Positions 29,732 to 57,834 of a stretch of DNA of 64,000 bases are shown piece by piece. How positions within the stretch are numbered: position 1 is the first letter of the stretch; every line of letters starts with the position of its first letter. Source of the DNA: Bradyrhizobium sp. G127 (GTDB taxonomy: Bacteria > Pseudomonadota > Alphaproteobacteria > Rhizobiales > Xanthobacteraceae); contig NZ_JAKFGN010000001.1 in NCBI RefSeq assembly GCF_021502575.1, forward strand, positions 992,001-1,056,000. The letters run 5' to 3'. The notes under the pieces are model-generated. The model made no database searches and had not been told where the DNA came from. It was given only the letters and a program-made list of their open reading frames with translations. The translations under genes were made by a program, and so were the position numbers.

Positions 29732-29938
29732 TCAGGCAATAATATCAGGTGTGATCTGGTCTTCGATGAACGCGATGCGGTCGCGCAATTGCAGCTTGCG
29801 TTTTTTCAGCCGCTGCAACCTCAGGAGGTCGGGCGCCGGCGACAGATGCAACGCCTCGATGGCGGCATCGAGGTCGCGATGCTCCTGCTGCAACCGCGCC
29901 AATTCCAGAGCGAATTCGTTGTTGTCCTGATCTACCAT
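29732..29938 (-). CDS. DUF465 / YdcH-family small protein
   Basis: A 68-residue helical protein (LELARLQQEHRDLDAAIEAL, LLRLQRLKKRKLQLRDRIAFIED), matching the DUF465 (YdcH) family pattern of heptad helices ending in a K-K-x-K-L-x-L-K/R-D motif. Function is unknown; the fold is a helical hairpin. It is divergent from a second DUF465 gene 420 bp away, and two large hairpins lie between them. Confidence 0.85.
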   Translation of the reverse strand: MVDQDNNEFALELARLQQEHRDLDAAIEALHLSPAPDLLRLQRLKKRKLQLRDRIAFIEDQITPDIIA

Positions 29939-30002: not shown

Positions 30003-30080
30003 CCAGTGGAGTGGATTTGACATTCGCACTCTCCCAGCCGGGAGTCCGCAAAGCGAATGTCAAATCCAGAACTCCACTGG
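30003..30080. repeat. Paired-hairpin element, copy 1 of pair 1
   Basis: A 78-base hairpin. The outer stem is 10 bp (30003-30012 with 30071-30080), the 3-base bulge AGA is at 30068-30070, the inner stem is 15 bp (30013-30027 with 30053-30067) and ends TTCGC at the loop, and the loop of 25 bases contains its own small hairpin CTCCC/GGGAG. All pairs are canonical. Confidence 0.8.
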
Positions 30081-30092
30081 AAACTTATATTT

Positions 30093-30169
30093 TCCAATGG
30101 TCCTTTGTTTCCAACATTCGCAAGAATGCCTGACGAAACGGGTGCGAATGTTGGAATCGGACCATTGGA
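30093..30169. repeat. Paired-hairpin element, copy 2 of pair 1
   Basis: A 77-base hairpin 12 bases after the first. The outer stem is 11 bp (30093-30103 with 30159-30169), an asymmetric internal loop has 5 bases against 2 (net 3), the inner stem is 14 bp (30109-30122 with 30143-30156) with ACATTCGCA next to the loop, and the loop is 20 bases. Stem sequences differ from copy 1 except for ACATTCGC. Confidence 0.8.
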
Positions 30170-30355: not shown

Positions 30356-30532
30356 ATGGCGATTCAGGCGCATCTCGTTGAACTGGAACGAAAACACGAA
30401 GTTCTGGAAAACGAATTGCACGATGCTCTCCAGCATCTTTCCACCGACGACCTCCAGATCATTGAGCTGAAGCGCCGCAAGCTGGTGCTCAAGGACCAGA
30501 TCGAACGCATCAAGCTTGCTACGGTCCACTGA
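30356..30532 (+). CDS. DUF465 / YdcH-family small protein
   Basis: A 58-residue protein: MAIQAHLVELERKHEVLENELHDAL, then LQIIELKRRKLVLKDQIERIK, the full DUF465 pattern. AAAGGAG stands eight bases before the ATG, a strong ribosome binding site, whereas the longer upstream frame has no support. It is a paralogue of the divergent gene at 29732-29938. Function is unknown. Confidence 0.87.
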   Translation: MAIQAHLVELERKHEVLENELHDALQHLSTDDLQIIELKRRKLVLKDQIERIKLATVH

Positions 30533-56923: not shown

Positions 56924-57191
56924 AACGCGACCCTCAATAGCTTTGTTGCATGGATTGGCCAGCGAAGAGGCGGGAAATGCCCGCAAAGGCTTCGCTGCGG
57001 CGTCGAAAGTGCCAATTCCAAATGTAGGCTTTCCTGTGAGCTATGCAAGATATGCAACCCATATCCTGCAATTTTCCCCAGCTCCGCATGACCTGTCGCA
57101 ATGACGAAATAAAATTGCGCGAACCGCGCCGGCTGGCTAGAACTGTGCCGGAATCGCCTGGAAGTGACGGGCGTCCAGAAACCGGGACAGC

Positions 57192-57263
57192 GGCGTGGTG
57201 GTTCGCAGTCCGTATCATACCCGCTGCGCGCTCGGATACGGACCTGCGGACCAAAACCACACC
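57192..57263. repeat. Paired-hairpin element, copy 1 of pair 2
   Basis: Outer stem of 8 positions with one mismatch (57192-57199 with 57256-57263), 3-base bulge AAA at 57253-57255, inner stem of 17 pairs with one G-T and one bulged base (57200-57216 with 57235-57252), and a loop of 18 bases. The geometry matches the pair at 30003-30169. Confidence 0.7.
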
Positions 57264-57277
57264 GGAATCCATAATTT

Positions 57278-57352
57278 CTAGTGTCCTTTCGTATCCGGCG
57301 TTCGCACGGAAGGCGCTGCAAAATGAAGCGAACGCCGGATACGGGACACTAG
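57278..57352. repeat. Paired-hairpin element, copy 2 of pair 2, touching the lrp start codon
   Basis: Outer stem of 9 bp (57278-57286 with 57344-57352), 3-base bulge TTT at 57287-57289, inner stem of 16 bp (57290-57305 with 57328-57343) with TTCGC next to the loop, loop of 22 bases. All stem pairs are canonical. Base 57352, the last paired base, is the first base of the Lrp gene's GTG codon. Confidence 0.82.
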
Positions 57353-57834
57353 TGTCAAAGAGCCTCGACGAAATCGATCTGAAAATCCTCAGTGAAATTC
57401 AGGCCGACGGCCGGATCACCAATGTCGAACTGGCCAAGCGGGTCGGCATTTCGCCGCCGCCCTGCCTGCGCCGGGTCCGCACGCTGGAGGAGGAGGGCTA
57501 CATCCGCGGTTACCGCGGCCTGCTCGATCCGCCGTCGCTCGGCTTCGATGTCACCGTGTTCGCGTCGGTGCATCTGTCGAGTCAGGCCGACGCCGACCTG
57601 CGCGCCTTCGAGGACTTCGTTCGCAAGGAGCCGTTGGTCCGCGAATGCTGGATGCTGTCGGGCGACGTCGATTTCATTCTCAAATGCGTCGCGCCGGACA
57701 TGGCGACCTTCCAGAACTTCGTCTCGCATCTCACCGCCGCGCCTCACGTGCGCAACGTGCGGACCTCGCTGGTGCTGCACAATTCCAAGGACGCGCCGGA
57801 CGTGCCGCTCGAACTGAAAGTCGCACAGGCCTGA
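57352..57834 (+). CDS. Lrp/AsnC-family regulator
   Basis: A 160-residue protein: LDEIDLKILSEIQADGRITNVELAKRVGISPPPCLRRVRTLEEEGYIRGYRGLLDP is the N-terminal HTH, followed by the RAM ligand-binding domain (VTVFASVHLSSQADADLRAFEDFV, CWMLSGDVDFILKCVAPDM, TSLVLHNSKDAPDVPLEL). It is Lrp-like and likely responds to an amino acid. The GTG at 57352 gives the family's usual N terminus; a longer frame upstream is composed of hairpin sequence. No good ribosome binding site precedes it because the stem occupies that place. Confidence 0.9.
   Translation: MSKSLDEIDLKILSEIQADGRITNVELAKRVGISPPPCLRRVRTLEEEGYIRGYRGLLDPPSLGFDVTVFASVHLSSQADADLRAFEDFVRKEPLVRECWMLSGDVDFILKCVAPDMATFQNFVSHLTAAPHVRNVRTSLVLHNSKDAPDVPLELKVAQA

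Follow-up and report, generated by a model that had tools for sequence, protein, structure and literature searches.

A dispersed double-hairpin repeat of Bradyrhizobium is probably a miniature element with IS630-type ends

Among described bacterial repeats, those nearest to the one reported here include RUP of Streptococcus pneumoniae and CIR of alphaproteobacteria. The available part of a 2007 review presents RUP as a 107-bp repeat with a 9-bp end stem, which forms a stem-loop by pairing of its 5' and 3' ends and for which IS630-Spn1, acting at TA, is the presumed mover (PMC2229807). IS630-type elements themselves insert into TA and duplicate this dinucleotide, according to the accessible portion of another paper (PMC2170065). 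CIR repeats, found in Caulobacter, Brucella and relatives, consist of two inverted-repeat arms joined by a linker and have TA at their termini, and their mobility is left open in the part of the review at hand (PMC2229807); Bru-RS is named in a further article (PMC2267715).

We analyzed a 64,000-nucleotide stretch of Bradyrhizobium sp. G127 DNA, hereafter the window, in which a tandem pair of large hairpins had been predicted at 30003-30169 together with a second pair of matched architecture at about 57192-57352. Both pairs were found, and their parts are as follows.

30003 to 30080, + strand: hairpin 1, class Y; its 5' arm spans 30003-30027, its loop has 25 bases and its 3' arm carries a 3-nt bulge
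30081 to 30093, no strand: A/T-rich spacer of 13 nt (AAACTTATATTTT) between the hairpins of the first pair
30094 to 30168, - strand: hairpin 2, class X, oppositely oriented; its outer arm, at 30144-30168, reads on the - strand
57190 to 57265, + strand: hairpin 1 of the second pair, class W, with a decayed outer stem
57266 to 57277, no strand: spacer of the second pair (AATCCATAATTT)
57278 to 57352, - strand: hairpin 2 of the second pair, belonging to Z, the class with an arm identical to an IS630 end

The second hairpin of the first pair ends one base before the reported end. Folded as single-stranded DNA, 30003-30080 and 30094-30168 gave z scores of -9.4 and -6.9 (0/200 shuffles fold as well). 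The second pair follows the same plan, with its first hairpin decayed, and the corresponding scores against shuffles were -4.1 for 57190-57265 and -7.6 for 57278-57352. A structural scan of the window, set to 25 bp with at most 4 mismatches and a bulge allowed, recovered three of the four hairpins and none in one base-shuffled copy of the window. In the first hairpin the 3' arm carries the 3-nt asymmetry, and in the second the 5' arm does, so that the two are in opposite orientation, with their bulge sides facing the 13-nt spacer. Once oriented, the arms of both hairpins share ACATTCGC plus a common start, CCARTGG; the stems do differ while pairing is kept, as the original prediction had it, but ACATTCGC is not the only stretch that they share. 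The two hairpins are oppositely oriented halves of one repeat of about 166 bp. The first pair lies between two divergent small DUF465 genes, at 29738-29938 (- strand) and 30356-30529 (+ strand). At the second pair, the last G of the terminal CTAG opens a GTG in frame with an Lrp/AsnC-type gene (window 57349-57354), and for this reason the element may provide the start codon of that gene.

A search of related genomes with a covariance model had been suggested, and the model, built from 11 hairpins, located hairpins at 56 distinct places of the genome itself, which measures 4.76 Mb (87 rows, many of them being one place read on both strands). Model matches and their close-range partners were laid out as 27 pairs, each with a + hairpin followed by a - hairpin and measuring 143-167 bp, and beyond these the genome holds some lone hairpins, few in number, and a fused one. 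The latter (L010, 1483-1551) is a lone bulge-less hairpin with one Y arm and one X arm, as if a deletion had joined both loops. BLAST of the region showed that the pair recurs as a block of about 163 bp at many sites in congeners; the dispersed unit is the whole pair of about 165 bp. In named genomes, at least 120 stretches match the X-type pattern, and the matches listed include Afipia, Bradyrhizobium, Nitrobacter, Rhodoplanes, Mesorhizobium and Phyllobacterium, while a class-wide pattern had matches in 11 of 385 genomes, belonging to 10 genera. In all, 549 distinct hairpins were compared; their stems differ and pairing is kept, which is neither the lack of further copies nor the sequence identity that would have spoken against the prediction.

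Out of 275 pairs, 266 could be classed (nine could not), and 259 of these join unlike arm classes whereas seven join like ones, with the qualification that the loci from named genomes were chosen by the X-type pattern and the class counts therefore lean to X-Y. All seven like-class pairs are in genome G701 and consist of two Z-like stems each. The idea that pairs always join unlike classes, drawn from a smaller set in which 0/216 were alike, was corrected by these seven. Elements are also nested, being inserted at CTAG inside other elements. Two particular arrangements were seen: at L120 (1369-1862) three near-identical X-Y elements lie in tandem and neighbours share a tetranucleotide, and at L104 (3340-3531) a different palindromic repeat of the CGTCATTCCGGGG type lies inside a pair, at the spacer. 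GANTC, a CcrM methylation site, is present at least twice in 130/152 X hairpins and 70/127 Z hairpins, and in 0/148 Y hairpins.

A linked transposase had been proposed as something to look for, and this search led to IS630-family ends. When plasmids were searched with palindromes built from single arms, that of the Z arm hit transposases of the IS630 family, and those of the X, Y and W arms yielded no insertion sequence. Z, the commonest arm class, matches the right end of an IS630 element of Roseomonas mucosa at 25/25 bases; this element was found via the Z arm itself, and protein similarity served to select another 12 IS630 loci (12 of 40 listed matches; 681 records had a match). A CTAGT end was present at one or both ends in 14/14 IS630 loci and at both ends in 9/14; no opposite end could be located in L423 and L442. 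In R. mucosa and Komagataeibacter oboediens the transposase gene extends into the right end, where the TAG of CTAG serves as its stop codon, and the probe proteins from both species score above the NCBIfam IS630 cut-off. One end of the B. barranii IS630 element is Z-like and the other W-like, the combination also present in W-Z pairs, and G701 carries, in addition to seven similar pairs, an IS630 remnant with the same end (24/25). When the arms were compared with 22 of the 29 IS630 ends (seven being unresolved or out of register), all arm classes did better than shuffled arms, with at most 4 of 2000 shuffles as good, and the X, Y, V and U arms matched in part (18-19/25). As for the transposase itself, the probe IS630 protein, which represents the probe branch only, had a match in G701 and G049 and none in the G127 genome, G013, G455, G646 or G472. 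A preference of IS630 for CTAG has reportedly been the subject of one study.

The borders and empty sites of the elements were then compared. CTAG is found at 311/432 outer borders, and TA is present at both borders of 136/216 elements and at neither border of 23/216. In the window CTAG occurs 12 times, against 215 predicted from base composition, and two of the 12 belong to the second pair. At the locus of the first pair, four aligned relatives (G002, G005, G009 and G011) have no pair, their exact join being unreadable, and G018 has another pair about 35 bp to the right. Another 12 sites, belonging to the sister genomes G013 and G018, were examined in six congeners (one of the 13 planned sites, L246, was left out). 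The search for insertion and empty-site pairs, also part of the original prediction, was successful: sister species lack pairs at tested sites, and three clean sites, s1, s2 (three genomes) and s6, have a single CTAG in the empty genome. The empty genome at s4 reads CTAG too but misses 21 flanking bases; the empty genomes lack CTAG at s8 and s9; s3, s7, s10, s11 and s13 were too diverged for reading and s12 gave no joined row. One further site, occupied in G018 and empty in G013, has CCAG to the left of the element, CTAG to its right and CCAG in the empty genome, and fits a TA target only if the site has since changed or the empty one is a secondary loss. Insertion without any duplication was first drawn from this site and is weakened by a scar or remnant found there in G002 and G015; the empty G013 site may therefore be a secondary loss. 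The three clean sites are consistent with insertion at TA, and because the target is CTAG, duplication of TA cannot be told from duplication of CTAG or from one shared CTAG.

Since the dispersed unit is the pair of about 165 bp, its outermost 25 nt match IS630-family ends and its clean empty sites are a single CTAG, the pair is probably a non-autonomous miniature element (MITE) with IS630/Tc1-mariner-type ends. It has several features of an IS630-family MITE, being short (143-167 bp), free of a transposase gene, dispersed in many copies (56 places) and homologous at its ends to IS630-family ends. An IS630-family transposase acting in trans would bind the outer arms, cut out the double-stranded element and paste it at the TA inside CTAG, duplicating TA. 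The inner inverted copy of the arm would be a doubled transposon end, and the match between the arms would since have been maintained in the DNA itself, through slow correction templated by the hairpin, through selection for symmetry or through both. Against the MITE reading stands the absence of a probe-like IS630 gene from the G127 genome and from four of the six others searched, and the mover was not seen at work; the elements of this genome look like old residents without a close transposase. Further points against it are the partial matches of the X, Y and V arms, the plasmid searches with the X, Y and W palindromes, the G018/G013 site with CCAG, the sites s8 and s9 and the 23 elements with TA at neither border.

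Other explanations were considered for the hairpin pairs, and the way in which their arms vary bears on one of them. Covariation, for which a test had been suggested, is real: the first 11 hairpins have 47 two-sided cells against 17.1 in shuffles (0/500 as high), further pair types not being raised (18 against 20.5). In the full set of 549, Watson-Crick changes on both sides were counted 603 times and one-sided cells 354 times, these cells not being independent events. If the host kept the pairs as RNA or terminator structures, this covariation would be selection on RNA folding, and the very stable predicted RNA folds and the position of the first pair between divergent genes agree with such a role. 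Selection on RNA pairing would favour G-U. Yet G-T accounts for 106 and A-C for 138 of the 376 mismatches in 13,725 pair cells, so that G-T is not preferred (the class comparisons covered bulged hairpins within 6 mismatches of a class, and the scan itself tolerates up to 4 mismatches). Relatives moreover lack the pair at the first locus, and an Rfam search of the window returned one tRNA alone and no family at the hairpin pair; neither a known RNA family nor G-U tolerant covariation was found. We regard upkeep of the pairs as RNA or terminator structures as highly improbable, and it is possible that single copies are used by the host. The selection on structure that the original prediction had put forward is accordingly unsupported for RNA and possible for DNA symmetry. 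Movement by an HUH/Y1 transposase (IS200/IS605 or REP-associated), which would recognise bulged hairpins and insert 3' of CYAG without duplication, is improbable as well, though a little less so. It would account for a hairpin with a conserved bulge at each end and for CTAG at the right end, and two IS200-type tnpA genes in two genomes have a hairpin pair directly at one side, with unrelated flanks (L205, 1185-2016; L206, 1187-2016). However, other copies of this tnpA, at L252, L253 and L255, have no pair beside them, and Y1_Tnp is absent from the G127 genome and above cut-off in 3/21, 9/25 and 4/10 genomes, most of them pair-bearing, which is not the co-occurrence of an IS200/IS605-derived or REP/RAYT element. 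No orientation bias by replichore was evident among 64 pairs, as judged without a statistic. The notion that the inner tetranucleotide guides insertion by pairing with its target was also dropped, 6/7 G701 copies having an inner CGAG and yet standing at CTAG. Poor co-occurrence and arms that match IS630 ends led us to set aside Y1 mobilisation. In genome G319, 13 IS200-type copies (L254, L259, L263 and ten other loci) start with CTAA in 12 cases and GTAA in one.

The arms co-vary without a G-T preference, which argues for upkeep at the DNA level and not for selection on RNA. We compared similar copies within G701, G455 and G646 (7, 5 and 3 copies), leaving out one pair (L417) and two regions without a scanned pair (L405 and L413). 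Each of the 15 stem pairs that vary is changed on a single side, and an A.G mismatch is common to 6/7 similar copies. This indicates that transposition does not rebuild the palindrome and that matching arises slowly; the copying step that had been thought to regenerate the palindrome, if placed at each jump, is thus unsupported. Among 18 orthologous elements of G013 and G018 (place L302 was left out as a duplicate), nine two-sided changes, all complementary and two of them transversions, were counted against 31 one-sided ones; re-dealing the partners gave a mean of 1.6 and a maximum of 5, and 0/2000 were as high as nine. Mismatches were 10 G-T, 9 A-C and 11 other, again without a G-T excess of note for RNA folding. 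Divergence between the two genomes was 8.3% in loops and spacer, 4.2% in flanks and 2.7% in stems. Such changes, and the missing wobble preference, would be produced by quasipalindrome correction, a repair process in which template switching lets one arm be rewritten in place from the other, irrespective of what the element does. It also agrees with the joint change of the outer flank and inner partner tetranucleotides, the inner one being complementary in 69/121 ends with a changed outer one. The one-sided changes in similar copies speak against it. So does the finding that in 11 hairpins another copy is the nearest relative, and these hold six of the nine two-sided changes and 8 one-sided ones, for which reason exchange between copies or renewed insertion may explain these six. 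The other 25 hairpins are closest to their orthologue and are left with 3 two-sided and 23 one-sided changes, where 0.34 two-sided are expected. Weak selection for symmetry is a competing possibility, and we hold in-place correction to be a reasonable candidate that is somewhat more likely wrong than right. What keeps the arms matched may be a slow correction of one arm by the other within the element, or else selection for symmetric DNA. More tentative still is the combined proposal that these are hairpin transposon ends kept palindromic at the DNA level by in-place arm-to-arm copying and not by transposition, that their hundreds of copies record bacterial palindrome correction and that the doubled-end design may explain CIR repeats.

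With the MITE reading, hairpin repeats that are widely spread in alphaproteobacteria gain a likely origin in IS630-type ends and a testable mover, and orthologous copies in sister species offer a natural gauge of how palindromes are kept up, one in which RNA selection can be told apart. MITEs of the IS630 type are a kind already known, the variant proposed here being one with doubled, hairpin ends; no description of these double-hairpin elements was found in a literature search that reached few subscription papers.

Compared with known systems, the CTAG-flanked IS630 insertion sequences (Tc1/mariner superfamily) of alphaproteobacterial and Cupriavidus plasmids share with the pair their 25-nt ends, which match the hairpin arms, and their CTAG borders. 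They are about 1.16-1.2 kb long and carry a transposase gene, which the pair lacks, and their ends were not seen doubled into hairpins. RUP is likewise a short repeat with IS630-type ends but, in the available description, forms one end-pairing stem-loop in 107 bp, whereas the pair has two hairpins in 143-167 bp. REP/BIME, GTAG and CGTC repeats and Br-REP1/2 of Bradyrhizobium resemble the pair in being palindromic, in some cases inverted pairs, and in occurring in the same bacterial groups; as far as the accessible parts of the sources go, REP/BIME-type units are 20-40 bp with GTAG or CGTC tags and the printed Br-REP consensus sequences are unlike the hairpin arms (PMC3733652, PMC5082802). The pair is larger and has no Y1 link. 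The closest published architecture appears to be that of CIR of Caulobacter and Brucella, likened here by description and not by sequence. Judged from the portion of the review available, both have two hairpin arms joined by a linker, TA termini and an alphaproteobacterial host, with a length of about 110 bp for CIR against 143-167 bp here, and with GANTC at the terminal loop in CIR but located in stems here, in X and many Z hairpins. The two-hairpin plan of the pair suggests a possible, testable mechanism for CIR repeats.
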